From a bacterium (lineage in GTDB: Bacteria; Blakebacterota; Blakebacteria; Blakebacterales; Blakebacteraceae), in assembly GCA_025774615.1 (NCBI GenBank), contig JALGVQ010000063.1:1-27229 (forward strand): a stretch of DNA of 27,229 bases. The letters run 5' to 3'. The notes under the pieces are model-generated. The model was not told where the DNA came from and ran no database searches. It saw only the letters and a list, made by a program, of their open reading frames with translations. The position numbers were made by a program, and so were the translations under genes. Positions 6,633-27,229 of the stretch are shown here, piece by piece (position 1 is the stretch's first letter; every line of letters begins with the position of its first letter).

Positions 6633-7253
6633 TCAGAGTTTCTTCAGATGGTAGGCGATCTCAGAGAGCCCGAGCGAGATGTGTTCATCCCGGACCAGCA
6701 CATCGGGCGGTACTGCCAGATCGGTCGGTGTGAAGTTCCAGATGGCTTTGATACCGACTGAAACAAGCCGGTCGGCAATAGTCTGGGATACCTCGACAGG
6801 CGTGCAGAGAATGGCGAGCATGATGCCATGCTTCCTGATATACGGTTTCAGGGATCTGATCGACCTGATGGTGTGGCCGGCTTTACTGCGACCTGTCTTG
6901 GCAGGATCGCTGTCGAAGACGGCGGTGATGCTGAGACCATATTTCTCGAAACCGGGATAGGTGAGCAACGCCCCTCCCAGCTGTCCCACACCAATGAGCA
7001 CAGCTGGATTCTCCTTATCGAATCCCATGACCGTTCGCACGGCACAGCAGACATCCTCGACCTGATACCCGACACGACCGATACCCACGAGTCCGATCGC
7101 GCCAAAGTCTTTCCGGACCTGCGTAGGATCGATATCGAGGGCTTCGGCTATCTGGGCACTCGTGATCGTCTGGATCGGCTTCGAGGCCGTTGTCTGAGAC
7201 AGAAACCGGTGGTACCGCATCAGACGTTCAAGCACCACCCTTTTGAGACGCAC
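6633..7253 (-). CDS. rex: Redox-sensing transcriptional repressor Rex
   Basis: This 206-residue protein matches Rex along its length. An N-terminal winged helix (about 1-75) contains TSAQIAEALDIDPTQVRKDF, the recognition region of this family. A Rossmann domain with VLIGVGQLGGAL (GxGxxG at 88-93) binds NAD(H), and the C-terminal swap helix ends SEIAYHLKK. Rex represses genes of fermentation and anaerobic respiration when NADH is low and leaves DNA when NADH rises. In Desulfovibrio vulgaris it represses sat. The start is GTG at 7253, set by GGGAGG about 9 bases upstream. A Rex-type palindrome sits about 50 bases upstream (7301-7316), which predicts autoregulation. It is transcribed in the same direction as the response regulator and kinase upstream but probably has its own promoter. 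Confidence 0.94.
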   Translation of the reverse strand: MRLKRVVLERLMRYHRFLSQTTASKPIQTITSAQIAEALDIDPTQVRKDFGAIGLVGIGRVGYQVEDVCCAVRTVMGFDKENPAVLIGVGQLGGALLTYPGFEKYGLSITAVFDSDPAKTGRSKAGHTIRSIRSLKPYIRKHGIMLAILCTPVEVSQTIADRLVSVGIKAIWNFTPTDLAVPPDVLVRDEHISLGLSEIAYHLKKL

Positions 7254-7413: not shown

Positions 7414-7797
7414 CTACCCGATCAAATCATTCACCATTTTCATCAGAAGCGGGGGATCGAGGGGCTTGTGGATAAAGCCTTCTGGTGGTGGAACCTGACG
7501 ACGGGTGGAGATGAATCTTTCGAAATCATCTGACACACCGGTAATGATGATCACCGGAATTGTCTGCAGTTGCTCGTCCTCTTTCAGTTTTCGATATACG
7601 GCAACACCTGATTTTTCAGGCATGGTGATATCGAGGGTGACAAGATCCGGTGGGTTCTGTTCCAACATCACCAGTGCCTCGGAACCATCTTTTGCCGACA
7701 CCGTTGCGTACCCGTTATCCTCCAGGACCGTGATAAGAAAATCACGCGCATCGGGATCATCGTCTACTACAAGCACGAGTTTGCCAGTGTCAGTCAT
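7414..7797 (-). CDS. Stand-alone response regulator receiver (CheY-like)
   Basis: This single receiver domain of 127 residues has no output domain. It shows the acidic pocket (VVDDDPD, residues 10-16), the phospho-acceptor Asp56 (VTLDITMP), a conserved Thr (IIITG) and the Lys in FIHKPLD. It overlaps the end of the histidine kinase gene by 8 bases, so the two are translationally coupled and almost certainly cognate. Its sequence is close to the receiver fused to the HdrD-like protein at 9322-11103: both share TLD..MP, an ITG motif and an unusual PEG(F/Y)(I/L)xKP(L/V)D block. That suggests gene duplication and a possible shared kinase. With no DNA-binding domain it must act by protein contact or as a phosphate sink. 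Confidence 0.9.
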   Translation of the reverse strand: MTDTGKLVLVVDDDPDARDFLITVLEDNGYATVSAKDGSEALVMLEQNPPDLVTLDITMPEKSGVAVYRKLKEDEQLQTIPVIIITGVSDDFERFISTRRQVPPPEGFIHKPLDPPLLMKMVNDLIG

Positions 7798-9271
7798 CAG
7801 ATATTTCCTTTTCAGTCAGGAGCGCGATGTCTGTTTCCGAATCATCTTCTGATTCAATGTCGACCGGAGCCTCACGAGGTAATTGTACCACAAATCGGGT
7901 TCCAGAATCAGGCCTTGATTCAAGTTTGACTGATCCACCGTGAGCAGTCGCGATCTTGTCGGAAATGAACAGTCCGAGTCCCGTTCCGGTACCTTTCGAT
8001 GAAAAGAAGAGGGTAAAGGCCTTCTCCCGGGTCTCCTGGTCCATCCCGATACCATTATCCTCAACTTCAAATTCGATGTGATCACGAAATCCACGCAGGC
8101 AGAATGTCACCTTGTGTTCGCTCTGCTTCTCATCCATACGGCAGGCATCGAATGAATTCTCCAGAAGATTCATAAGAAGGGCCCGGATCGCCTGACCATC
8201 AGCCTGGAAAGTACCCGCGTCAGGATCGAAACTGGTCGCGAATTCCACCTGCTGTTCCCTTGCCCGGTTCTCCATCGCAGCGAGTACTTCCTCGGCGATG
8301 TTCAATGAGGACAGGATCTCCCAGTTGGGGACACGGTCCTTGGCGTAATACAGGATATCCGAGACCATACTGCTGATGCGGCTGACATTCCGCTGAACGG
8401 TCGCCCACCCCTTTTCTACCCGCTCCTCAATGCCTTTCGACATACCGGTATCGACCAGATACATCCCTCCCGCAAGTCCGTTCAGCAATCCTTTCAATCC
8501 ATGGGATACCGAACCGATCAGAAGCCCGAGAGAGGTCAATCTATCTTCAAGATCGCGGATATGGGTAATGTCGGCACTCATCTCCATCACCCCGGTGATG
8601 TTCCCCGTCTCATCCTTCAGGGGGGCGGTTGTAACCAGGGTATTTATTCGACGGCCGTCCCGTGATGTTACGCATTCCTCGCGTGAATGGGACTGACCAT
8701 CATCAAGTGTTTCCTGCACTGGACAGGGAGCGCACGGTTCACTTCGATGCTTGTAAGCTTCATAACACTTCATCCCAAGACTGTTCCCGAATGCCTCCTG
8801 GAACGCCCGGTTTGCCTCGATGATGTTCAGGTCGCGATCCTGGATGGAGATATAGCAGGGGACTTCGTCGAAGAGCAGACGGTAACGCTGCTGGCTTCGG
8901 CTCAGGAGCTCGTGGAGGTTCTGGATGTGGGTGATATCGGTCGAAACCTCCATGACGGCGGTTATGGTTCCATCGTCATCATGGATCGGTTTCGTATAGA
9001 CTATCGTCCTGACCTCGCTGCCATTGAGTATCTGTACCCGCTCCTGGCTCTCGTGCCGCTGTCCATCGCGGAACGTCCGGGCGACCGGGCAGACCTCGCA
9101 ACGATCGGGGCGGCGTTTATAGACCTGATAGCAGTGACGGCCTTCGTAGTCACCAAAATCTTCTCTGAAACGCTTGTTGGCGTCGATTATCCGGAAATCC
9201 CGGTCCTGGACCGTCACATACCCGGGCATTTCAGCAAAATACTTGAAGTACTGTTTATACTGCGTATCCAT
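7790..9271 (-). CDS. Double-PAS sensor histidine kinase with Cys motifs in each PAS
   Basis: This 493-residue kinase has no membrane segment and is probably cytoplasmic. Two PAS domains (about 8-118 and 128-242) each contain the same motif, C-x10-C-x2-C-P: C47, C58, C61 and C169, C180, C183, in the contexts HCYQVYKRR..CEVCPV and KCYEAYKHR..CAPCPV. A dimerisation and phospho-acceptor helix follows, with H257 (SVSHGLKGLLNGL). The ATP-binding domain has an N-box (NLLENSFDA, N372), G1 (VEDNGIGM) and G2 (GTGTGLGLFI). The Cys clusters suggest bound metal, an Fe-S cluster or thiol redox chemistry, fitting the surrounding electron-transfer genes. The start has GGAGG six bases before the ATG. The gene lies 50 bases after the HdrD-receiver fusion and overlaps the receiver gene. 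Confidence 0.93.
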   Translation of the reverse strand: MDTQYKQYFKYFAEMPGYVTVQDRDFRIIDANKRFREDFGDYEGRHCYQVYKRRPDRCEVCPVARTFRDGQRHESQERVQILNGSEVRTIVYTKPIHDDDGTITAVMEVSTDITHIQNLHELLSRSQQRYRLLFDEVPCYISIQDRDLNIIEANRAFQEAFGNSLGMKCYEAYKHRSEPCAPCPVQETLDDGQSHSREECVTSRDGRRINTLVTTAPLKDETGNITGVMEMSADITHIRDLEDRLTSLGLLIGSVSHGLKGLLNGLAGGMYLVDTGMSKGIEERVEKGWATVQRNVSRISSMVSDILYYAKDRVPNWEILSSLNIAEEVLAAMENRAREQQVEFATSFDPDAGTFQADGQAIRALLMNLLENSFDACRMDEKQSEHKVTFCLRGFRDHIEFEVEDNGIGMDQETREKAFTLFFSSKGTGTGLGLFISDKIATAHGGSVKLESRPDSGTRFVVQLPREAPVDIESEDDSETDIALLTEKEISDD

Positions 9272-9321: not shown

Positions 9322-11103
9322 CTATCCCTCTTCGTGTGCCAGTTCAAGGATCTTGCGAACATTCAGCATCAGATTCGCTTCGTCTACCGGCTTGTCAAGG
9401 TATCCCTCGGGACGCCTGACAGATCGATCGTAGATGAGTCTTCTCAGCTCCGGCCGACCCGTGATGACACAGATCTTCAGATCCTCGAGTTCCGGATCCT
9501 CCCGGAGCATTTCGAAGACCTCACCCACATCGCGACCCGGCATATGCAGGTCGAGGGTGAGCAGATCCGGTTTCTCCCTGCGAGCCAGCTCAAGCGCTTC
9601 GTCCCCGGTTCCAGCTCTGTGGACCGTGGCACCATTGTCCTCGAGAACGGTCGCCAGGAACTCGACCTGGTCCGGCTCATCGTCGGCGACGACTATCACC
9701 CGGCCTGAAAGCGGCAGGGCTTCCAAAGCAGCTGCAACCGGAACCTCATCCGCGGTGACCGCGACCGGGACTTCTTCGACCGGAACGACCACCTTCTCCT
9801 CGATCACCAGGGCGTTGGCCACCAGGTTCACCAGCTGGGTGACTTCCATGTCGATCTCGTAGTGTTTGATCACATCACTCAACCCGTCGACACAGTTATG
9901 GCAACTGGTCACCACCACTTCAGCACCGGTCTCTTTCAGTTGATCGGCCTTGATGACACCCGACTTGAGACGTTGCGGAGTGTATTCAGACATGGACATG
10001 GCCCCACCGCCACCCGTACAGCAGTAATTCTCCGCGCGATTGGGGTACATCTCCTGGAAGTTTTCACAGACCAGGTTCAGCAGCTCACGCGGCTCCTCGA
10101 AGAGTCCGCAGCTCCGGGCGTTGTTGCATGAATCATGGAATGTCACCAGCTGGGTGTTCCGGCTCCTGTCGACCTTGATCCGTCCCTCCTTGATGTATCT
10201 GAGCATCGTCAGGACAGAACTCTCCATCTCGAAGGGCACATCGAACCCGGCCCAGTTCGAGCCTTCACAACGCGTCGAACGATACCCGTGCCCGCATTCA
10301 GATATGACCAGTTTTCCGGCATTCAGCTCGATGACCTTCTCGTAGAGTCGCCGGGCGACTGAACCGCCCAGGGCATCATCCCCTGAAAAGAGTCCGAAGT
10401 TCGTCTGATCCCACCCCTCACTCGGCATCGTCCATTTCTCACCGGCGGCGTGGAATATCTTGGCGGCGTCGGCGATACTCCGCGGATCGTATTTCACCTC
10501 ACGCGGATTGATGGCATAGAGCACATCGCAGTCAGAGGCATCGACGGGGATAGTGACACCCGGATCCTCCAGTTCGTCCTGGAGTTCTTCTTCCATCCAT
10601 TCGAGTGTGTCGAGGTAATCCTCCTTCAGCACACCCATCTGATTCCCGATCTCCCACTGGTCCTTGCTCACCACCGCAACACCCTCAGGCTGGATCCCTA
10701 CAGACACCAGAAGCCCCCTGGTCATCCGGTTGAAAGTGGCAAAGTCGACTCCCATCGGGCAGTTCAGCGTGCATCGTCTGCAGTTGGTGCACTTACCGAA
10801 CACCGTGTCCTTCAGCTCTTCGAGTTCCTCGTCGGTGAACACCGAACCCGCCTTCACCCACCAGGGAAAGACGCGGCCGGTCCAGTCATAGTGACGTTTG
10901 AAAAGCTTACGGACCTTGTCGGCCTTGTAAGCCGGTGCATAGGTCGGGTCACCGGGATTGGCGAGCACATAATGGCACGATTCGGTGCACATTCCACAAT
11001 GAACACAAGCTGCCAGGGATCCGACCACCTGTCGGTTCAGCTTCTGACCGAGCCGTTCAATGACCATCTCCGCCTTATGCGACCGCTGTTTCTTTTCGCT
11101 CAT
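9322..11103 (-). CDS. HdrD/DsrK-like iron-sulfur subunit fused to a C-terminal receiver domain
   Basis: Of 593 residues, about 1-435 are an HdrD/DsrK/TmcB-type electron-transfer protein. It has two 4Fe-4S motifs (C33, C36, C39, C43 and C105, C108, C111, C115) followed by two CCG-type modules: ECGH at C270, HDSC with C326, CC361-362 and SCHNC with C401 and C404. These proteins pass electrons between a NarI-like quinone-reactive subunit and cytoplasmic thiol/disulfide or ferredoxin-type partners. A Val/Glu/Pro-rich linker (about 436-466) leads to a full CheY-like receiver (468-590) with an acidic pocket ADDEPD, phospho-acceptor D518 and K571. The start at 11103 opens the homologous region; the open frame further upstream overlaps the NarI gene. 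The paired membrane subunit precedes it and a kinase plus second receiver follow it. Subfamily (DsrK versus TmcB) cannot be settled by eye. Confidence 0.9.
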   Translation of the reverse strand: MSEKKQRSHKAEMVIERLGQKLNRQVVGSLAACVHCGMCTESCHYVLANPGDPTYAPAYKADKVRKLFKRHYDWTGRVFPWWVKAGSVFTDEELEELKDTVFGKCTNCRRCTLNCPMGVDFATFNRMTRGLLVSVGIQPEGVAVVSKDQWEIGNQMGVLKEDYLDTLEWMEEELQDELEDPGVTIPVDASDCDVLYAINPREVKYDPRSIADAAKIFHAAGEKWTMPSEGWDQTNFGLFSGDDALGGSVARRLYEKVIELNAGKLVISECGHGYRSTRCEGSNWAGFDVPFEMESSVLTMLRYIKEGRIKVDRSRNTQLVTFHDSCNNARSCGLFEEPRELLNLVCENFQEMYPNRAENYCCTGGGGAMSMSEYTPQRLKSGVIKADQLKETGAEVVVTSCHNCVDGLSDVIKHYEIDMEVTQLVNLVANALVIEEKVVVPVEEVPVAVTADEVPVAAALEALPLSGRVIVVADDEPDQVEFLATVLEDNGATVHRAGTGDEALELARREKPDLLTLDLHMPGRDVGEVFEMLREDPELEDLKICVITGRPELRRLIYDRSVRRPEGYLDKPVDEANLMLNVRKILELAHEEG

Positions 11104-11147: not shown

Positions 11148-11816
11148 CTATCCGCGCTGCACCGGGAAGACACCCCGGTGACCGAGGGTCTTGCCCAGGT
11201 AGTAGCGGGTGAACGGATAGTAGAGGTAATGGGAGATCTTGCTGAACGGCACATACATCAGGAAGAACGCCGTCAGGATGAAGTAGGTGAGCAGATGCCA
11301 CTCGCCGCTGCCGGTCTGATTCGGTACCGACAGGAAGGCGAAGAAGAACCAGACCGTCAGAAGGATGAGAGAGAAGTAGTCATCAGGTGAGCTGAGTGCC
11401 CGCATGTACACCCCACCTGCGCGCCTGATGATCCTGCCCACACCGATCACGAACGCGGCTCCGATCATGACCTGGAAGAGGGTGACCAGGAGGGTACTCT
11501 CAAGGAGAACAGGGCCGTAGGGGATGATGAATGACAGGGTGATCGCCGCGACAACTCCGAGATGGAACATTACGAAGGTGATATACATCAAGGGACTTCT
11601 TCGCGTGCTCTCCATCGCCCACGGCATGGCAATATTGCCCCAGGAATAGAGGATCCCCTTCTTCGGAGTGGTGTCAGCCGCCCCGGTGGCTGCCTGACGC
11701 TCTCGACCCGCCTTGAAACGCAGGAACCAGGTGATACGTATGATGTACACGATCGCCATGAATCCCAGGGCAACCTCTTGAAGTGTGTGCTCGGAAAAAT
11801 GCAGGAATTCGCTCAT
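11148..11816 (-). CDS. NarI/DsrM/TmcC-like membrane subunit
   Basis: This 222-residue integral membrane protein resembles the cytochrome b-type gamma subunits of nitrate reductase (NarI) and of the DsrM/TmcC family. Hydrophobic segments lie at about 13-31, 73-92, 101-124, 145-163 and 172-192. Histidines that could bind heme b are near membrane ends (FVMFHLG, GEWHLLTYF, KISHYLYY). It should oxidise or reduce menaquinone and exchange electrons with the HdrD-like protein encoded directly downstream. The ATG at 11816 was chosen as giving a normal N-terminus; another ATG lies four codons upstream. It follows the macro-domain gene after 16 bases and is very likely in the same operon. The short length and C-terminal pattern are closer to TmcC-type than to DsrM proper. 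Confidence 0.85.
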   Translation of the reverse strand: MSEFLHFSEHTLQEVALGFMAIVYIIRITWFLRFKAGRERQAATGAADTTPKKGILYSWGNIAMPWAMESTRRSPLMYITFVMFHLGVVAAITLSFIIPYGPVLLESTLLVTLFQVMIGAAFVIGVGRIIRRAGGVYMRALSSPDDYFSLILLTVWFFFAFLSVPNQTGSGEWHLLTYFILTAFFLMYVPFSKISHYLYYPFTRYYLGKTLGHRGVFPVQRG

Positions 11817-11832
11817 GGTATATTCCATCCGG

Positions 11833-12381
11833 CTAGTTCAGATTCGTCATCGTTGACTGGAATGCGTTGAACTGGGGAGTATCAAAGACACAGATGATCA
11901 CTTCACTGATGCCCGTCTCCCCTTCCAGATGCGACTTGATCACATCCAGCATCACTTCGGCCGACACCGCCGGAAGGATCCCGTAGTAACCCGCGCCCAT
12001 GGCAGGAAAGGCGATACGTCTGAATCCCTTCTCTTCTGCGCGCCTGAGAGCATTGATCATCGTAGTGCGAAGCTTTCCCTCGATATCTTCTTCCCGGAAT
12101 CGGGGACCCACGGCATGGATGATGCTGTCAGCCTTGAGATTGCCGGCGCCTGAAACAATCGCGCCACCCGTCTCCAGAGGATCGAATTCATCAAGTTCCT
12201 TCTGCACCGAAGGTCCGCCACGCACCGCGATAGCGCCTCCGAACCCTGAACCGAGGGCCAGATCGTGCTGTGCGTAATAGACGAACGCGTCGACTTCGAT
12301 ATCGGTGATGTCATCCCTGATAAGCCGGACAACACACTGATTGATCTGAATGGAAGTATCTTCCTGGAGAGTCTGGGACAT
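11833..12381 (-). CDS. Macro-domain protein lacking the NAAN asparagine motif
   Basis: This 182-residue protein is a single macro domain, the fold that binds ADP-ribose or related nucleotides. Visible hallmarks are DIEVDAFV near the N-terminus, the glycine loop LALGSGFGGAIAVRGG, VSGAGNLKADSIIHAVGP and IAFPAMGAGYYGI. In ADP-ribosyl hydrolases the first motif is usually VNAAN; here it reads VYYAQ, so the residues needed for hydrolysis in MacroD-type enzymes are missing. It may bind a nucleotide without hydrolysing it, or act on another ligand. It heads the leftward operon with the NarI-like, HdrD-receiver, kinase and receiver genes, suggesting a nucleotide or NAD-linked sensing role, which is inference. 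Only a weak AAGG site about 13 bases upstream supports the start. Confidence 0.85.
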   Translation of the reverse strand: MSQTLQEDTSIQINQCVVRLIRDDITDIEVDAFVYYAQHDLALGSGFGGAIAVRGGPSVQKELDEFDPLETGGAIVSGAGNLKADSIIHAVGPRFREEDIEGKLRTTMINALRRAEEKGFRRIAFPAMGAGYYGILPAVSAEVMLDVIKSHLEGETGISEVIICVFDTPQFNAFQSTMTNLN

Positions 12382-12896: not shown

Positions 12897-13820
12897 ATGT
12901 CCGCCTCAGTAGTGATTCTGTTGCTGTATTTCCTGCTGGCGATCATGGTCGTGACATTCACTGTCCGGACCATCAGGATTGCGAAATATCCTGTCCACCT
13001 CCGCTGGGAACTCTCCCCGGTGCCCCATGAAAAGGGCCGGGGCGCGTATGGCGGTTCATACCTCGAGGAGTTCGAGTGGTGGAAAAAACCACGCGAGAAA
13101 TCTCTGGTCAATGAACTGATCTACATGTTCAAGGAGATCGTGTTCCTGAAGGCTCTCTGGGAGCACAACCGAAAGATGTGGTACTTCTCATTCCCCTTCC
13201 ACTTCGGGCTCTACATCCTGTTCGTCATGGCGGTAGTGGTCGTCCTCGGCGGCATCTCCGGACTCCTGAATCTCCCGCAACCGGGTCTCGGGCTGCTGAG
13301 GACGGGGGCCCCGCTCCTGGCCGGGACCGGATATATCCTTGGCGGGATCGGAGCGCTGGGTCTCTTTGTCGGCCGACTCTTCAGCCAGAGGCTGAAACCG
13401 GTCACGACACCGGCATCCTTCATCAATCTCGCGCTGCTGCTCACCTTTTTCATCAGCGGTGTGTACGCTGTTGCAGTGGTATCGGATTTTCCACATGAGA
13501 TGGCTGTGGTCGTGCAGAACCTGATAACGGTGAATCTTTCGGGAGAAATCGCTGCCCCTCTGGCCATCCACCTGATCGTAGCCGGCGTGTTCCTTGCCTA
13601 CCTGCCCTTCACCCAGATGATGCACTTCGTCGCCAAATACTTCACCTATCACGAAGTCCGATGGGACGACGAACCTCTTGAGGTCGGGGGCAAGATGGAG
13701 GCTGAGATCCAGGAACTGCTGCAGCAGACAGTGACATGGGCCGCTCCTCATCTGGGGGCCGATGGCAAGAAGAACTGGGTGGATATCGCCACCGCATCAC
13801 CCTCCGAGGAGATCGAATAA
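12897..13820 (+). CDS. NarI/HdrE-like membrane subunit
   Basis: This 307-residue membrane protein has an N-terminal helix (about 5-24) and a cytoplasmic stretch with HEKGRGAYGGSYLEEFEWWKK. A core of about four further helices follows (about 101-125, 137-160, 175-198 and 218-240). The C-terminal segment LPFTQMMHFVAKYFTYHEVRW carries a histidine of the kind that binds heme b in NarI/DsrM-type proteins. It should form the quinone-reactive membrane anchor for the HdrD-like protein encoded next. The stop and the next start overlap by one base (TAATG), indicating translational coupling. GAGGAG lies about 10 bases before the ATG. It is the probable first gene behind the Rex-type operator. I place it in the NarI/DsrM/HdrE superfamily without assigning a subfamily. 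Confidence 0.82.
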   Translation: MSASVVILLLYFLLAIMVVTFTVRTIRIAKYPVHLRWELSPVPHEKGRGAYGGSYLEEFEWWKKPREKSLVNELIYMFKEIVFLKALWEHNRKMWYFSFPFHFGLYILFVMAVVVVLGGISGLLNLPQPGLGLLRTGAPLLAGTGYILGGIGALGLFVGRLFSQRLKPVTTPASFINLALLLTFFISGVYAVAVVSDFPHEMAVVVQNLITVNLSGEIAAPLAIHLIVAGVFLAYLPFTQMMHFVAKYFTYHEVRWDDEPLEVGGKMEAEIQELLQQTVTWAAPHLGADGKKNWVDIATASPSEEIE

Positions 13821-15404
13821 TGAGTGAGAAGATCCGCGTGAAGGACATCGGGAAAAATCCGGACCAGAACCTTACAACGGTCGATCCTGCAAAGCTCATT
13901 CCTCTCCCGCCGCCTTATGACAAGATCGAGGACCAGCCTGAGTGGAAGAAACTCAGTGAGGGTGCCCTGGAGAGTATGGTCTGCAACCTCGACGGCTTCG
14001 TGGCCCTGAGTCTGCCCAAACCGGAGAACAAGAAAGAGGAGAAGAAATACGTCGACCAGTTCGTCGAAGGGCTCAAAAAGCTCCTCTCAAAGGAGAACAA
14101 CTGGACCTTCCTCCAGCCACTGATGCTCTCTCTTGAATACTGTGTCGGATGCCAGACGTGCAGTGATGCATGTCACATCTACGAGGCAGGCGGTGAGAAT
14201 GAGATCTACCGCCCCACGTATCGATCAGAGGCATTCCGCAGGCTGGTGAACAGGTACGCGAAACCGGGAGGAAAATTCACAGCCGCTCTCAATGGAGCCG
14301 ATGTCGATCTGAACTGGACTACCATCACACGGCTCGCCGAGCTGGCCTATCGATGCAATCTCTGCCGGCGCTGCGCCCAGGTCTGTCCCATCGGAGTGGA
14401 CAACGGGCTGATCACTCATGAGATCCGCAAACTCTTCAGTCAGGAACTGGGAAGGTACCGTCCTCCAGCTCGATGTCGGTTCTTCCACCGGGATGAACGA
14501 TATCGTGGCAAAGGACAACATCGAATTCATCGATGAAGACATGGCCGACCTGACCGGCATCAAGGTGACAACCTGCTGGGACAAGGAAGATGCCGATGTA
14601 CTTCTGCTTCATAACGCCGGCGAGATCCTCGCATGGCCGGAGAATCCGGGGGCCTTCGCGATCATCCTGGACGCCGCCGGTATCGACTGGACACTTTCTT
14701 CCGAGCAGTTGGGGTACGACGGGGTCAACTACGGCCTCTTCTACGATGACTTCCAGCTCGCCCGAATCGCGCTGAAACATGCTGGATCCGCGAAAAAGCT
14801 GAATGTCAACAAGATCGTCATGGGTGAATGCGGCCATGAGCACAAGGCTCTCATGACAATCGCCGACCGTGTCCTTACAGGAGATATGGCGGTGAGACGG
14901 GAGAGTTGCCTGCCTCTTCTTGAGGAGATCGTCTTCAGCGGAAAGATCGAATTCGATCCTTCAAAGAATGACTTTCCGGTGACCCTGCACGACCCCTGCA
15001 ACATCGTGCGCAACCTCGGTATCGTCGAGCCACAAAGAAGGATTCTCAGGTATCTCTGCCCGCAGTTCCGGGAGATGACCCCTCACGGCGTGGATAACTA
15101 CTGCTGCGGAGGCGGGAGCGGTTTTGCGGTCATGTCGGTCAACAACTTCACCGACTGGCGGATACACGTGGCCAGCCGCAGGAAGTTCAGGCAGATACTT
15201 GACGCCTTCGCCGATCAGCCGGGGCCGGAGGTGAAGAAATATCTCTGCGCTCCCTGCTCCAACTGCAAGGGCGAGATCCGTGACATGCTGAATCACTACG
15301 ACGCACTTGAGAGGAGCAGCATCACCTACGGCGGTCTCGTCGAACTGATCGTGAACGCCATGGTAGACGTCAAGGAACCGTTCATCGAATGGGAGATGCA
15401 CTAG
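13820..15404 (+). pseudogene. HdrD/DsrK-like iron-sulfur subunit, frameshifted near 14450
   Basis: Two overlapping frames together make one HdrD-like protein of about 528 residues. The first part (from 13820) has two 4Fe-4S motifs (C108, C111, C114, C118 and C179, C182, C185, C189) and is colinear with the family up to HEIRKLFSQELG (ending 14452). From about 14451 the family sequence continues in the next frame (EGTVLQLDVGSSTGMN) through the CCG modules (GECGHEH, HDPCN, NYCCGGGSG, CAPCSNC) to the stop at 15404. Aligned with the related protein at 9322-11103, about 23 bases are missing at the junction, which accounts for the frame change. As written, translation from 13820 would stop at 14536 without the CCG modules. 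It may be a real deletion or an assembly error. Confidence 0.8.
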
Positions 15405-15447: not shown

Positions 15448-16113
15448 ATGGCCCGAGCCTCACTGAAAAACCAGATCCGGAATCTGCTCGAAGAGGGAGA
15501 CCTGGATCAGGTCGCTGAGGTGGCCACTGCCAGGCGACGTACTCTCGGTCAGCTCGTCTCGCTGACCTTCGACAGCGATCCCACAATCGTGTACCGGGCG
15601 ATAGAAGCCACCGGAGTCTGTGCCGGAAGGCTCGCAAAGATCGACCCGGACAGTGTCTGGGAACACCTGCGCCGCCTGCTCTGGATGATATCGGAGGAAT
15701 CGGGCGGCATCTGCTGGCACGCTCCCGAATTGATGGCCGAGATCGTCCATCGCCTGCCCGACCAGTTCTCCGAGTACCTTGAAGTCACCGCCTCCTTCCT
15801 GCTCACCATGGAGGAGGAGGACCTCGAACACTTCAGGCCTGCCGCGCTCAGAGCTCTGGGACTGCTCGGTGAGATCCCTGGAGATCTGCGCTCCGAGCTG
15901 ATGCCGGCGGTAACGGCCGCGCTCGATTCACCCGATGCACAGGCTCGTGGAATGGCGGTGTGGGCATTGTCGAGGATGGGTGAGACCGATCTCATATCCG
16001 GACGGAAAGAACTTCTCTCTGACGATGGTGAAGTGGATCACTACCACGATGGCCGGCACCATCGAACTACTATCGCGGACCTGACCAGATCGTTACTCGA
16101 CGCTGTCGGTTGA
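15448..16113 (+). CDS. HEAT-repeat protein, DVU0298-like
   Basis: This 221-residue protein is built of alpha-helical repeats typical of HEAT/ARM proteins: DSDPTIVYRAIEATGVCAGRLA, HFRPAALRALGLLGEIPG and SPDAQARGMAVWALSRMGE. An unusual conserved-looking segment, WMISEESGGICWHAPELMAEI, resembles that of the DVU0298 family of sulfate-reducing bacteria; this is my recollection of the family, not a search result. HEAT proteins act as scaffolds, and the close spacing to the HdrD-like gene (43 bases) suggests a role in assembly or regulation of that complex. The N-terminus is basic and helical. The gene ends inside the 3' end of the convergent SUMT gene, overlapping it by 21 bases. Confidence 0.75.
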   Translation: MARASLKNQIRNLLEEGDLDQVAEVATARRRTLGQLVSLTFDSDPTIVYRAIEATGVCAGRLAKIDPDSVWEHLRRLLWMISEESGGICWHAPELMAEIVHRLPDQFSEYLEVTASFLLTMEEEDLEHFRPAALRALGLLGEIPGDLRSELMPAVTAALDSPDAQARGMAVWALSRMGETDLISGRKELLSDDGEVDHYHDGRHHRTTIADLTRSLLDAVG

Positions 16114-21423: not shown

Positions 21424-22242
21424 CTAGGGAAGTGGATCGAACCAGTTGATATTGAAGTTCACTTCCTTCACACCATGAACGGATTGAACGATCTCGTGGA
21501 TGGTGTCCCCTGTGCGGCCCGATGGAAGCATCGGCGCGGATCCTGCTACCGATACAATACCTGAGGTCGCCTCGATGTCGAAATCGATGGCCCGTGTTTC
21601 GGTCGCGCTGGCCAGGGCAAGCCTTACATGACATTCGAGCTGGAAGTCCTTCAGGCGGTTGAGGACATCATCCGTGAGATTGAATTCAGTCTGCCTGACG
21701 GTGCTCTCCAGCATACCACAGGCCACGGTGAAATTGACCTGATCGAGATTCAGTACGATGTCATAGAGTGCCGGATCGTTGATATCTTCTCCGTACATCA
21801 TCCTGATCCAGCGGGCACGGGCATCATCCACGTTGTGGAGGTACCGTTCTGCAGCAGCCCTGTCCATGTCATCGGATTCCTGCAGGATCCCCAACCTGGT
21901 CTCCAGCGACGCGATGAGGCGAACGCGTACCACCGCGGGCACCCCGCGCAGCAGGAGCTGTCCGCAGAGACCGTGGTAGACCAGGTTACCCTCGACCGCG
22001 TGATCGGCCAGAACGGATAGAATGGCGGCCTTGTAGAGCCTGGTGGAGGCAGAAAGCTTCTCCCACATCCGCGGCGGGGTTTCCCAGCGGTTGATCAGAT
22101 CCTCTTCGGCAATACCCAGACCAGCGGCTGCTTCCTGAGCCACTTCCCGACCAAGGATGGGATAGCCAAGCTCTTCAGCCAGGCATGCCGCCATCGCCAG
22201 GCCTCCACTTTTCGTACCTCGACTGATCGCGATGATCGCCAC
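21424..22242 (-). CDS. Cytidylate-kinase-like protein with C-terminal BON-like domain
   Basis: Residues 1 to about 190 match the cytidylate-kinase-like family: MAIIAISRGTKSGGLAMAACLAEELGYPILGREV, HGLCGQLLLRGVPAVVRVRL, and RAAAERYLHNVDDARARWIRMMYG. The N-terminal loop lacks the Lys of a standard P-loop (SRGTKSGG rather than GxxGxGK). Residues about 200-268 look like a BON domain (VRLALAS..., SGIVSVAGSAP, VQSVHGVKEVNFNI), a small phospholipid- or ligand-binding fold. The first part is a paralogue of the next gene upstream (22325-22978), which lacks BON. The start is GTG, with AGGGGAAG upstream. True CMP kinase function is doubtful; a regulatory nucleotide-binding role near dsr genes is possible but unproven. 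Confidence 0.78.
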   Translation of the reverse strand: MAIIAISRGTKSGGLAMAACLAEELGYPILGREVAQEAAAGLGIAEEDLINRWETPPRMWEKLSASTRLYKAAILSVLADHAVEGNLVYHGLCGQLLLRGVPAVVRVRLIASLETRLGILQESDDMDRAAAERYLHNVDDARARWIRMMYGEDINDPALYDIVLNLDQVNFTVACGMLESTVRQTEFNLTDDVLNRLKDFQLECHVRLALASATETRAIDFDIEATSGIVSVAGSAPMLPSGRTGDTIHEIVQSVHGVKEVNFNINWFDPLP

Positions 22243-22324: not shown

Positions 22325-22978
22325 TCAGTCACGTTTGGAAAGAGCCTCCTGGAGACGGGCCCGGCATTCAGATTCGCGCGCTTCCAGAGCCGCGACTGTT
22401 TCTGCTGTCCGCTGGTACGCTGGTTCCGCCACAACCTCGGTTATGATCGCACACACCGTGTCGATCGAGATCGCCTCCAGATTCAACGCCAGGTCAAATG
22501 TCGACAGATCATCTGAATCGATGTCATACATGATTTTCACCCATCGAGCGTGGTCCCGGTCCTGGGCTTTCAGAAAATGCTCGGCCGATTGTTGGCTCAT
22601 GTGATGGTGCACTCTACGCAAGGCCTTCACCCGTATCTCCATCGGCGTAGTGAGACGTGTGCGCAGTACTCCCGGTAAACCGCTCAGAAAGTATCTCCCT
22701 GCCAGACCGTGGTAGATGAGGTCATCCTCGATGCAGTACTTCAGGAGCACGGTCTGCACCGCGAGGGTATATATCTCCCGTTCGTGAGTCAGACGTGCCC
22801 ACAATCCAGGTACCGACTCGTATTTCACCGTCAGTAACTCCGGTGATGCCCCAAGACTTCTGGCAGCCTCCCGCAGTACTTCCCTGGCTATTACCCGATA
22901 ACCGAGAACATCGGCGAGACAGCTTGCCAGCTTCTCGCCACCGCTCATTTCCCCCCGTGAGATGGTGATGATCGCCAC
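22325..22978 (-). CDS. Cytidylate-kinase-like protein
   Basis: This 217-residue protein is a paralogue of the gene downstream: MAIITISRGEMSGGEKLASCLADVLGYRVIAREVL, HGLAGRYFLSGLPGVLRTRL, SAEHFLKAQDRDHARWVKIMYD and a DLALNLE segment follow the same order. The family is annotated as cytidylate-kinase-like because of its P-loop-kinase fold, but the loop here (SRGEMSGGEK) is not a normal Walker A. The tail (about 190-217) is helical and charged and replaces the BON domain of its paralogue. The start is GTG, with AAGGGA six bases upstream. It lies 24 bases after dsrN, so it is almost surely in the dsr operon. Substrate and role are unknown. Confidence 0.78.
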   Translation of the reverse strand: MAIITISRGEMSGGEKLASCLADVLGYRVIAREVLREAARSLGASPELLTVKYESVPGLWARLTHEREIYTLAVQTVLLKYCIEDDLIYHGLAGRYFLSGLPGVLRTRLTTPMEIRVKALRRVHHHMSQQSAEHFLKAQDRDHARWVKIMYDIDSDDLSTFDLALNLEAISIDTVCAIITEVVAEPAYQRTAETVAALEARESECRARLQEALSKRD

Positions 22979-23002: not shown

Positions 23003-24409
23003 TTATACGCGTTCGTTCCGGATGGTCCGGTATCGGACCGCCGCTCTGACGAGCGCCGGGGCCCATGTTGTCGAACCTGACGCATGCAGATGCGTGTACA
23101 TTGCCAGAACATTGCCGTAACACAGGCCATCCCGCTCGCCATCAAAGCCGTGACCGCGGTGTACCCGGAACGCAAAAGAGAGTCCATTATAGGGTGTCCC
23201 TTCAACGCCGGTATAGTGGAACTCATGGCCTCTGTGGGTCTCACCCTGCTCAAAGAACGGATTCTCCGACACAGTCTCCAGCTCGACGTATCCATGGCCC
23301 CTGGGGCGGGTCGAGAAAGTGAAATCGAGAGGGAAGATACCGGCCATGGGGAAATCGTTTCCCTGGAAGTGGAGCGTTCTACCGAGGTAAACGGCTCCCC
23401 CGCATTCAGCGTAGACAGGCAATCCCGATTCGACTTTCTGGTGAAGTGATCGTTTGAAGGAGTCGTTGCCTGCCAGTGTCGCTGCGAGTGTCTCGGGAAA
23501 ACCGCCACCGAGATAGAGGGCGTCGACTTCCGGCACATCCTCATCAGTCAGTGGCGAGATATCAACAAGCTCAGCACCCTCATGGAGAAGAGCTTCAAGA
23601 TTCTCCGGATAGTAGAACTGGAAGGCCGCATCCCTGAATACCCCGATCCGGGTGACCTTCGCTGCCGGTTCCCCTCTCTCCACCTCTGCTGCCGGATCTC
23701 CATCAACACCCTCGAGGTGAGGCGCGTCATGGGCAAGGGACCAGATGGTCTCGAGATCGAGATATTCCTCGGCCATCTCAGTCATCTTCCCGAGGGAATT
23801 CTCCCCTTCCAGGTGTTCCGGGGGAGGAACCAGGCCCAGATGACGTTCGGGGAACGATTCCCCGGGTAGACGGGGTACCGCCCCCACAACCGGCAGACCG
23901 CAGATCTCACTGATCGCGTCTTCGAGTACTCCCCTGTGGCGGGGACCGGCGATCCGGTTCAGAACGACACCGCGGATGGCAACTTCACTATCGAGTCGCT
24001 GGCACCCGAGAATCATCGCCGCGACGGTCCGGGTCACCTTGGTGCAGTCGACCACAAGGATGACGGGAACGTTCAGCAGTTTGGCCAGTTCAGCCGTGCT
24101 GCAGGTACCGGCCACATCCATGCCATCGAAGAGGCCGCGGTTCCCTTCGATCACCGAGATATCTGCCGAAACACCTGAGTTGGTGAAGGAATCGATGATG
24201 GTATGGGGGGTATGCATGAAGAGGTCGAGATTACGACACGGCCTCGCTGCCGCTGATGACAGCCAGGCCGCGTCGATATAATCAGGCCCCTTCTTGAACG
24301 GGGCGACGATATGCCCCTGTCTGCGCCAGGCTCCGACGATTCCCAGTGAGATGATCGTCTTGCCGCTGCCTCCGCGGAGACCGGCAACGAGAACCCGTGG
24401 ATGGGCCAT
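23003..24409 (-). CDS. dsrN: DsrN, cobyrinate a,c-diamide synthase-like (siroheme amidation)
   Basis: This 468-residue protein has the CbiA/CobB two-domain layout. An N-terminal ATP-dependent synthetase domain carries the P-loop GLRGGSGKT (10-18) and KKGPDYIDAAWL, then VIEGNRGLFDG and VVDCTKVTRTVA. The C-terminal class-I glutaminase domain has LYLGGGFPE and the nucleophile C336 in YAECGG. In dsr operons this enzyme is DsrN, thought to amidate siroheme to the siroamide of sulfite reductase using glutamine. The start at 24409 lies 5 bases after the dsrL stop; the longer open frame upstream is a shadow of dsrL. A cobalamin role cannot be excluded, but the neighbours (dsrB, dsrD, dsrL) favour DsrN. 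Confidence 0.9.
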   Translation of the reverse strand: MAHPRVLVAGLRGGSGKTIISLGIVGAWRRQGHIVAPFKKGPDYIDAAWLSSAAARPCRNLDLFMHTPHTIIDSFTNSGVSADISVIEGNRGLFDGMDVAGTCSTAELAKLLNVPVILVVDCTKVTRTVAAMILGCQRLDSEVAIRGVVLNRIAGPRHRGVLEDAISEICGLPVVGAVPRLPGESFPERHLGLVPPPEHLEGENSLGKMTEMAEEYLDLETIWSLAHDAPHLEGVDGDPAAEVERGEPAAKVTRIGVFRDAAFQFYYPENLEALLHEGAELVDISPLTDEDVPEVDALYLGGGFPETLAATLAGNDSFKRSLHQKVESGLPVYAECGGAVYLGRTLHFQGNDFPMAGIFPLDFTFSTRPRGHGYVELETVSENPFFEQGETHRGHEFHYTGVEGTPYNGLSFAFRVHRGHGFDGERDGLCYGNVLAMYTHLHASGSTTWAPALVRAAVRYRTIRNERV

Positions 24410-24413
24410 GCTG

Positions 24414-26108
24414 TTACTGCATCTGGATGAAGCCGCACGGACAGATCTCCGCGCACTTGTCGCAGCCGGTGCAGTTCTCCATTTTGAAGAGGAAGAGCTC
24501 GCCTTTTCCCTGCGGTTTGATGATCGCCTGTTCCTGGCAGTAGAGCCAGCAGTTCTCACAGTAGAAGCAGTAGCCGCAGCTCATGCACCGTGCCGATTCC
24601 TGGATCACCTGCTCTGCGTCGAGGCCCAGATTGACCTCTTTATCGACGTCGTCCATCCGGTCCGCAACCTCGAGAAGGTTGGGTTCGACACGCTCCATCG
24701 GGGTCTCCCTGAAATAATCAAGGAACATCTTGTCGCTCCGGATGACCTCTCTCTTGTCGGCCTCCTTCTCCACACCTGTGAACCGTACTACCATCGATTC
24801 AGCCGCCCGGCGGCCGTGTCCGATGGCATCAGTCACAAGCGCCAGATCGATCGTGTCACCACCGGCCCAGACACCTTCGACCTTTGTCTCACCCTTATCA
24901 TCGACCTTGATCCAGTCCCGTCCCTCGATAAGGGATTCGAATCCGGTGAAGTCAGGCTGCTGGCTGATCGAGGAGATGACGGCACTGGCCGGTATCTCGA
25001 ACTCCGATCCTTCGATCGGCACGGGACGGCGACGACCTGAATCATCAGGTTCACCCAGTTCCATCCGGATGGCGACCATAGCCGTCACCAGGCCCTCATC
25101 GTTCTTCTTGAAACCGATCGGCGCGGCCAGGAACTCGATGATGATCCCCTCATTGAGCGCCTCGTCTATCTCTTCCTCGATCGCCGGCATCTCTGCCTTC
25201 GTCCGGCGGTAGAGGATCGTGACGTTCGCGCCGAGTCGCTTGCAGATCCGGGCGGAGTCGATGGCGGTATCACCACCACCGACCACGATGGTGACCACAT
25301 CCTTGCCCAGATCGAGCTGTTCACCATGGTGGAATCGGCTCAGAAAGTCGACGCCGGAGAACACGTTGGGCGCTTCCTCACCGTCGACTCCCAGGGTGAC
25401 ACCCTGCTGTGCTCCGAGGGCCACATAGACAGCGTCGTAGTCCTGCTTCAGCTGATCGAGCGTGATGTCGACACCGATCTTGACGCCGCATTTCAATTCC
25501 ACACCGATATCGAGGATCTTCTGGATCTCCTTCATCAGTGTTTCTTCGGGAAGGCGATAACCGGGGATACCCCAGAACAGCATGCCGCCCGGTTTCTCCA
25601 TCGCTTCGAATACGGTGACCCCATAACCACGCCGCGCCATCTGGTAGGCGCACGAGAGGCCGCTCGGTCCGGCCCCGATCACGGCGACCTTCTCCGGCTT
25701 CTCCTCCCCGGAGATCTTCACCAGCGGCAGATCGTTCTCGAGACCGAAATCACCGATGGCGCGCTCGATCTTGTTGATACCGACCGCCCCCTCGAGGTCC
25801 TTCCGGTTGCATTCGGTCTCGCAGGGAGCGGGACAGACCCGACCGCAAACCGACGGGAACGGACTCGTATCGGTGTAGATCTCCCAGGCCTCACGCATCG
25901 CCTGGTCGTGTGTCTTGCCGAGCTTCTCGGCCTGCGCGATGGTGGTGATGAACGAACGGATCCGGTTGCCGCTGGGACAGGTGACACCGCAGGGCGGTTT
26001 TTTCTCAATATGTACCGGACGTCGCGAAGAAACATCACCTCCCCCACTCCCCGAACCCATGCTTGAGAAACTCTTCTTCCGCTTCTTCACCACCTTCTTT
26101 GCGCACAT
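24414..26108 (-). CDS. dsrL: DsrL, NAD(P)H:acceptor iron-sulfur flavoprotein
   Basis: This 564-residue protein has the glutamate-synthase small-subunit-like layout of DsrL. An N-terminal cysteine region (C40, C44, C88, C92, C96, C100) precedes the FAD motif IGAGPSG (144-150). An NAD(P)H motif VVGGGDTAIDSA (275-286) and a second FAD-contact region (VWAGGDTIDLALVTDAIGHGRRAA) follow. The C-terminal ferredoxin part has C508, C511, C514, C517, C520, C524 (CMSCGYCFYCENCWLYC) and C546, C549, C552, C556. DsrL passes electrons between NAD(P)H and DsrAB. It is essential in oxidisers and, as the DsrL-2 type, occurs in putative reducers. The N-terminal basic and Ser/Gly-rich 30 residues are an extension. 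AGAGGTGA supports the start. A strong hairpin lies upstream, between this gene and dsrD. Confidence 0.9.
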   Translation of the reverse strand: MCAKKVVKKRKKSFSSMGSGSGGGDVSSRRPVHIEKKPPCGVTCPSGNRIRSFITTIAQAEKLGKTHDQAMREAWEIYTDTSPFPSVCGRVCPAPCETECNRKDLEGAVGINKIERAIGDFGLENDLPLVKISGEEKPEKVAVIGAGPSGLSCAYQMARRGYGVTVFEAMEKPGGMLFWGIPGYRLPEETLMKEIQKILDIGVELKCGVKIGVDITLDQLKQDYDAVYVALGAQQGVTLGVDGEEAPNVFSGVDFLSRFHHGEQLDLGKDVVTIVVGGGDTAIDSARICKRLGANVTILYRRTKAEMPAIEEEIDEALNEGIIIEFLAAPIGFKKNDEGLVTAMVAIRMELGEPDDSGRRRPVPIEGSEFEIPASAVISSISQQPDFTGFESLIEGRDWIKVDDKGETKVEGVWAGGDTIDLALVTDAIGHGRRAAESMVVRFTGVEKEADKREVIRSDKMFLDYFRETPMERVEPNLLEVADRMDDVDKEVNLGLDAEQVIQESARCMSCGYCFYCENCWLYCQEQAIIKPQGKGELFLFKMENCTGCDKCAEICPCGFIQMQ

Positions 26109-26501: not shown

Positions 26502-27229
26502 CTAGTGTCTGAGATGCGCGGACCGCTTGAAGCTGAGGCCCGCGAATCTGAAGTCATCAATGTGTTCTTTCGTGAACTCGATACCGGTCAGCTCGAAGAA
26601 CTTGGGCCAGCCGATACGATTGATGAACTCACCCATTCGCTCGTACTTCCTGGCACCATCCGCCCAGACATCCACGATGTTCCTGACGGCATCGGTCACC
26701 TCAGGCCAGCGTGGCGGATTGTTGGGGATGAATGGAATGGCGAGTTTCGAAAACATCGGCTCGGAACGCGCGTTGGAGACCTTGCCTCCCACCCAGATCG
26801 ATATCCCGTCGTTGAGGGCATCGGCCATCGGCAGCGAGGGACAGACCGAGAAGCAGTTCGCGCAGAACATACACCGGTCCTCTTCGATCTCTACTGACTG
26901 GACTCCTTCGACCGTCGCCGGGCGGATCGCTCCCGTGGGACAGGAGGCGATCACATTTGGAATCTCACACAGTTTCTTGAGCTTCTCATGTTCGATCCTC
27001 GGCGGCAGGCGGTGGATACCCAGGATCGCGATGTCGGAACAGTGCACAGCACCACACATGTTCAGACAGCACGCCAGCGCTACCCGAAGCTTTCCGGGAA
27101 GGTCCCTGTCGGTGAAGTGCTCACGGAGATCGTCCCTCACGGACTTGACCCCCCCGGAAGCATCTGTTGCTGCCGAGTCACAGTGGCCCCATCCCTGGGT
27201 ATGCACGATGTTGGAGATCTTGTTGCCCA
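26502..27229 (-). CDS. dsrB: Dissimilatory sulfite reductase beta subunit, C-terminal part
   Basis: The frame is open through the right edge of the window, so the start is outside; about 242 residues are visible. [24 protein letters not shown] matches the region before the siroheme-binding part of Dsr[15 protein letters not shown] carries the siroheme/4Fe-4S cysteines. A ferredoxin insert follows ([14 protein letters not shown]), preceded by SCPTGAI. The C-terminus ends [13 protein letters not shown]. DsrB pairs with DsrA in the cytoplasm to reduce sulfite with six electrons, passing a trisulfide to DsrC. dsrA would lie just to the right of the window. The CDS is followed after 30 bases by dsrD. 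Confidence 0.95.

Follow-up and report, generated by a model that had tools for sequence, protein, structure and literature searches.

Here, we describe respiratory Fe-S subunits that carry a complete phospho-receiver domain at their C-terminus and that are encoded in a conserved gene cassette together with a membrane cytochrome b subunit, a macro-domain protein, a soluble histidine kinase and a second, free receiver. We suggest that this cassette is probably a two-component system with a respiratory complex as its output, i.e. that phosphorylation directly controls electron flow. In the window analyzed, a stretch of 27,229 nucleotides, the cassette is part of an island of dsr (dissimilatory sulfite reductase) genes, and its setting is dissimilatory sulfur metabolism.

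A receiver domain fused to an Fe-S electron-transfer subunit

The fusion protein (Table 1) has three Pfam domains, i.e. Fer4_8 (residues 30-119, E 4e-11), CCG (320-404, 6e-11) and Response_reg (470-582, 6e-16). Its Fe-S part contains two 4Fe-4S motifs (a 4Fe-4S dicluster) and one CCG domain, while the receiver has the complete set of active-site residues (D474, D475, D518, T548 and K571), that is, the acidic pair, phosphorylatable Asp, Thr/Ser and Lys of a PF00072 receiver with CheY fold. In the AF2 model, the receiver shows the classical beta-alpha order with a pLDDT of ~93, and Foldseek matched it to receivers. The first-pass annotation had claimed a complete CheY-like receiver, with D518 and K571, on an Fe-S electron-transfer protein rather than on a DNA-binding protein. 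Both residues are at these positions, Pfam, AF2 and Foldseek agree on the domain, and neither the fused nor the free receiver has a DNA-binding domain. The linker is disordered in the model (440-460, pLDDT <50) and leaves the receiver undocked from the Fe-S part, which counts against direct control of electron flow.

Among NCBIfam families, the Fe-S part scores best against HmcF (330 bits, cut-off 750), TmcB (321 bits, cut-off 735) and DsrK (249 bits, cut-off 400), i.e. below every equivalog cut-off, and it is therefore a member of the same superfamily but of no named family. The Fe-S and membrane subunits match TmcBC and HmcEF (NF045724, NF045711, NF045723 and NF045716) better than any other family (321-330 and 44-48 bits, respectively), with scores far below the equivalog cut-offs (735-750 and 240-275). 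The cassette further differs from TmcBC/HmcEF in having a fused receiver and a macro-domain gene and in lacking a multihaem cytochrome. No ORF in the window has two or more CXXCH motifs; in the homologue set, for which the best 80 of 123 relatives from one scan of genome contigs with the fusion protein were kept, an ORF with three or more such motifs was present at 4/80 loci, in no case inside the cassette.

With DsrMK (NF045796), the cassette shares one CCG and two 4Fe-4S motifs, a cytochrome b partner, a position near dsr genes and, often, a receiver alongside. However, the fusion forms a clade separate from DsrK in 100% of bootstrap trees, and the window has a separate DsrMK-like pair next door to the cassette. 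As for HdrDE, HdrD has two CCG domains while the fusion has the single CCG stretch, which makes it a DsrK/TmcB/HmcF-like protein; of the initial label “HdrD/DsrK-like”, only the second half was retained. The top PDB match of the Fe-S part, by Foldseek as well as by sequence, is EtfD, an ETF:menaquinone oxidoreductase (PDB 9ojn). By contrast with the cassette, in which two genes encode the Fe-S and membrane subunits and a receiver is added, EtfD is a single large chain (1042 aa deposited).

Conservation and spread of the fusion

Full-length homologues of the fusion (60-89% identity) are present at nearly all of the best 80 of 123 loci, from more than ten phyla, among them Acidobacteriota, Gemmatimonadota, Zixibacteria, Calditrichota, Planctomycetota, Myxococcota, LCP-89 and Elusimicrobiota; thus, the fusion is no chimera. 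In an alignment of 81 sequences, the phosphorylatable Asp is kept in 78/78 (the 78 that reach this position), the Lys in 77/77 and Thr or Ser in 78/78. The fused receiver is under strong purifying selection and constrained like the Fe-S part: in a comparison with the congeneric genome G001, the receiver has a dN/dS of 0.046 and the Fe-S part one of 0.056, while the linker reaches 0.28.

As a single contig from a fragmented MAG, the window could in principle contain an assembly chimera, or the receiver could be a vestigial domain without function. The same fusion in dozens of independent genomes, together with the dN/dS of the receiver, rules out a chimeric assembly, and the intact active site argues with them against a vestige, making either explanation extremely improbable. 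The first-pass annotation had named absence from close relatives as a sign of such an assembly and had left the spread of the fusion unknown. The fusion is in fact present in the congeneric genome and in further genomes, and its wide spread had been missed.

The cassette and its other members

The cassette genes are arranged in the order macro-domain protein, NarI/TmcC-like membrane subunit, fusion, PAS-PAS histidine kinase and free receiver. Among the best 80 of 123 loci, the genes for the NarI-like subunit and the macro-domain protein are each in place at 74, the kinase gene at 69 and the free receiver gene at 53; all five are in order at 47/80, with many of the misses at contig ends. The NarI-like subunit and, directly downstream of the fusion, the soluble kinase and the stand-alone receiver with Asp56 had been recognized previously and were confirmed here, while the macro-domain gene had been overlooked. 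The kinase gene neighbors the fusion at most loci but not in G096, in which it lies away from the cassette.

Table 1. Features of the cassette and its surroundings in the window.
Feature	Position	Strand	Length	Remarks
Rex redox repressor	6633..7253	(-)		Same strand as cassette
Free single-domain receiver, DVU0259/DivK-like	7414..7797	(-)	127 aa	
Soluble PAS-PAS histidine kinase	7790..9271	(-)	493 aa	
DsrK/TmcB/HmcF-like Fe-S subunit + receiver fusion	9322..11103	(-)	593 aa	Fe-S subunit 1-437, flexible linker 438-467, CheY-like receiver 468-590
NarI/HmcE/TmcC-like membrane cytochrome b subunit	11148..11828	(-)	226 aa	
Macro-domain protein	11833..12381	(-)	182 aa	
DsrM-like cytochrome b subunit	12897..13820	(+)		Divergent neighbor
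DsrK-like subunit	13736..15404	(+)		Split over frames 13736-14536 and 14418-15404
DVU0298-family HEAT-repeat protein	15448-16113	(+)		Directly 3' of dsrK
Two adjacent cytidylate-kinase-like ORFs	21424-22242, 22325-22978	(-)		In dsr/siroheme island
DsrN/CobB-type synthase	23003-24559			
DsrL-type protein	24414-26108			Family PRK12771, which we take to be of the DsrL type
DsrB fragment	26502-27206	(-)		Runs to contig end

In the NarI-like subunit, only H89 and H200 are invariant (79 sequences). The macro family has neither the usual NAAN motif nor the catalytic Asp and, given the general role of the NAAN motif in macro domains, its absence suggests that the protein probably binds without catalysis. 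The kinase has the domain order PAS-PAS-DHp-ATPase and no transmembrane segment. Its model contains two PAS folds, a DHp hairpin (236-310) with H257 on the first long helix, and an ATPase domain; thus, the sensor domain, the His-bearing DHp helix and the HATPase_c domain of a sensor histidine kinase are all present. H257 is conserved in 70/70 sequences, and a C-x10-C-x2-C pattern, which could bind a metal center, is invariant in both PAS domains. The free receiver has D12, D13, D56, T86 and K111, a full active site that is kept in 54/54 sequences, and its gene overlaps the stop codon of the kinase gene.

The first-pass annotation had suggested phospho-control without transcription; DNA-binding regulators are found near the cassette in some genomes, i.e. 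Rex in the window, an adjacency present only here and in the congeneric genome, and Rrf2 or MerR-like proteins elsewhere. Specifically, a regulator that belongs to the Rrf2 family (at about 25 loci) or resembles MerR/HspR is often encoded 5' of the cassette, upstream of the macro gene (e.g. L103:4080-4703(+) and L064:4124-4687(+)). At one locus, the cassette is adjoined by a tandem receiver-receiver protein (L102:7901-9742(-)), the first receiver of which groups with the fused type, and both of its receivers have similar blocks (PEGYLDKP and PEEFLEKP).

The fused receiver, the free receiver and the kinase

A PEG(F/Y)(I/L)xKP block, which had been pointed out as common to the fused and free receivers, is borne out by the alignments, in which P105 and K111-P112 (numbered as in the free receiver) do not vary among 77 fused and 54 free sequences. 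In helix 1, the usual kinase-contact helix of receivers, fused and free receivers from the same locus agree more than permuted pairs (0.526 vs 0.479, p<1e-4; none of 10,000 permutations was as high). Outside helix 1, the rest of the domain shows no same-locus excess (0.391 vs 0.387 permuted, not significant), and neither does the alpha4-beta5-alpha5 face. The output faces of the two receivers differ and are conserved within each set, with PELRxLIYDR in the fused and DDFxxFISTR in the free receivers. Judged by their sequences, both receivers appear to be targets of a single kinase.

Receivers commonly dimerize via the alpha4-beta5-alpha5 face. Because the fused receivers have a distinct and conserved version of this face, the receiver might instead serve assembly, dimerization or localization of the complex, in which case phosphorylation would tune the abundance of the complex and not its turnover. 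We consider such a role improbable, although nothing specific speaks against it and sequence cannot separate it from direct control.

In a tree of the Fe-S domain, receiver-less proteins at L126-L128 and, separately, at L112 nest inside the fused clade, arguing that the receiver was lost at least twice. L111 resembles a further receiver loss but is ambiguous because of a frame break in the next gene. A kinase ortholog is absent from the receiver-less genomes, with nothing at E 1e-25 in G253, G277 and G181 and a best match of 178 bits in G104; it is present with >400 bits in 7/9 fused genomes searched, G096 among them, and was not found in the fused genomes G095 and G434, possibly due to MAG gaps. 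Receiver loss thus goes with absence of the orthologous kinase in two clear cases and a third, ambiguous one, in a comparison of small numbers in which the genomes are MAGs. A quick tree had suggested that the receiver arose a second time in Bryobacterales, but a careful tree did not support this.

Linkage of the cassette to dsr genes

The dsr context of the cassette was missed in the first-pass annotation. The window also holds siroheme genes and dsrMK (Table 1), and the break in dsrK is likely a sequencing or assembly error because the gene is one intact ORF in the congeneric genome (L138). DsrB is truncated by the end of the window, and DsrA of the same genome lies terminally on a different short contig (G000:C3); therefore, the dsr operon has been split by assembly. 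In four Acidobacteriota (L110, L115, L117 and L118), the free receiver gene of the cassette overlaps the dsrM ORF, which makes one continuous block of the fusion, kinase and receiver genes with dsrM and dsrK.

dsrA was detected above the cut-off in 47/53 genomes, nearly all of which have the fusion. In an even sample of 199 Acidobacteriota, dsrA is present in 8/8 genomes with the fusion and in 12/191 others (Fisher p 2e-9, kinship ignored). Among 132 Zixibacteria, the numbers are 28/33, including a few partial fusion matches at contig ends, and 19/99 (Fisher p 2e-11, kinship ignored). Thus, the fusion is strongly associated with dsrA in the two phylum samples; however, many dsrA genomes are without it and, consequently, the fusion is not required for the Dsr pathway. 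As for markers of the direction of sulfur flow, DsrD was found in 6/50, AprA above the cut-off in 39/50 and DsrE above the cut-off in 0/50.

Unfused receivers beside tmc and dsr genes

In Thermodesulfobacteriota, DVU0259-family receivers are encoded beside the TmcC/TmcB genes of sulfate reducers (L175, L177, L178 and L179) and beside dsrMK (L180). L179 has the unfused order NarI-TmcB-receiver, with the receiver gene within about 30 bp of tmcB. At 12/22 dsrMK loci examined, a set with near relatives, a receiver gene on the same strand overlaps or is at a distance of <=150 bp. In a tree, the fused, the free and the tmc/dsr receivers form one group, from which three control receivers are separate. 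Because unfused receivers adjoin tmcBC and dsrMK in sulfate reducers, the fusion can be read as a fixed form of a receiver-subunit partnership.

In several Acidobacteriota (L129 and L131-L134), a free receiver gene lies 4-52 bp 3' of dsrK. An apparent second DsrK-receiver fusion family in this phylum (32% matches, 26-586) was rejected; it has an internal stop and consists of dsrK and a separate receiver gene 4-52 bp downstream, across which the search had extended its matches. Next to tmcBC in one Thermodesulfobacteriota locus, the single ORF L175:5281-6285(-) combines a DVU0259-type receiver with an apparent Rrf2-like DNA-binding domain (by eye), which is another fusion partner for this receiver family.

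Discussion

Taken together, the conserved architecture, the selection on the receiver, the linkage to the kinase and to dsr genes, the same-locus agreement of the receivers in helix 1, and the unfused receivers beside tmc and dsr genes are best explained by direct phospho-control. We infer phosphorylation of D518 by the kinase, and its effect on electron flow, from architecture, conservation, selection, linkage and general knowledge of two-component systems. In the model that we suggest, the soluble kinase with its two Cys-bearing PAS domains would respond to a cue from the cytoplasm (probably redox or oxygen) by autophosphorylating on H257, and the phosphoryl group would be transferred to both the tethered receiver, at D518, and the free receiver, at D56. 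Once phosphorylated, the tethered receiver may dock differently on the Fe-S subunit or on partners of this subunit, and this change would set electron exchange between the membrane cytochrome b on the quinone side and an acceptor in the cytoplasm; a plausible acceptor is a disulfide carrier of the Dsr pathway that resembles DsrC. Via the free receiver, the signal would also reach another target, perhaps DsrMK, a frequent neighbor of such receivers.

Alternatively, the signal could run in the reverse direction, with the respiratory complex as the sensor and the free receiver as the output. The redox state of the complex would then change receiver phosphorylation or dephosphorylation, or the complex would hold the soluble kinase at the membrane. 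The long flexible linker of the fusion, the solubility of the kinase and the full active site of the free receiver are all compatible with this direction. However, the kinase has two PAS domains of its own with invariant Cys, and the receivers that adjoin unfused TmcB and DsrK fit effectors at least as well; we therefore regard a reversed signal as rather unlikely and favor direct phospho-control of the complex.

A precedent for this type of control is EpsW, a single-domain response regulator that acts directly on an enzyme target, EpsZ (PMC12802240). Like the fused receiver, EpsW is a phospho-receiver for post-translational regulation without a DNA-binding domain; however, EpsW is free and targets a glycosyl transferase (PMC12802240), while the cassette receiver is fused to an electron-transfer subunit. 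Literature searches, in-text ones included, gave no mention of the fusion; they covered a minority of the subscription journals.

We speculate that the fusion marks a class of respiratory complexes that is widespread among uncultured sulfur-metabolizing bacteria and is switched directly by two-component phosphorylation, in which one kinase would address a receiver in the quinone-linked Fe-S subunit and a free receiver that in turn addresses DsrMK. Classical sulfate reducers, with their DVU0259-type receivers next to tmcBC and dsrMK, would then have this control in an unfused form. As a joint reading, this is tentative and somewhat less likely than not. If true, sulfite/sulfur electron flow would be set within seconds. 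Regulation of bacterial respiratory electron transfer is usually discussed in terms of gene expression or substrate supply; the architecture described here suggests that cells may tune respiration through phosphorylation of the respiratory machinery and not through gene expression alone. With a receiver on a respiratory subunit that is intact across phyla and tied to a kinase, direct phospho-control becomes testable in one purified system. The fusion also offers a reason why sulfate reducers have orphan receivers next to tmcBC and dsrMK, and it provides a marker for a dsrAB-bearing group that is largely uncultured.
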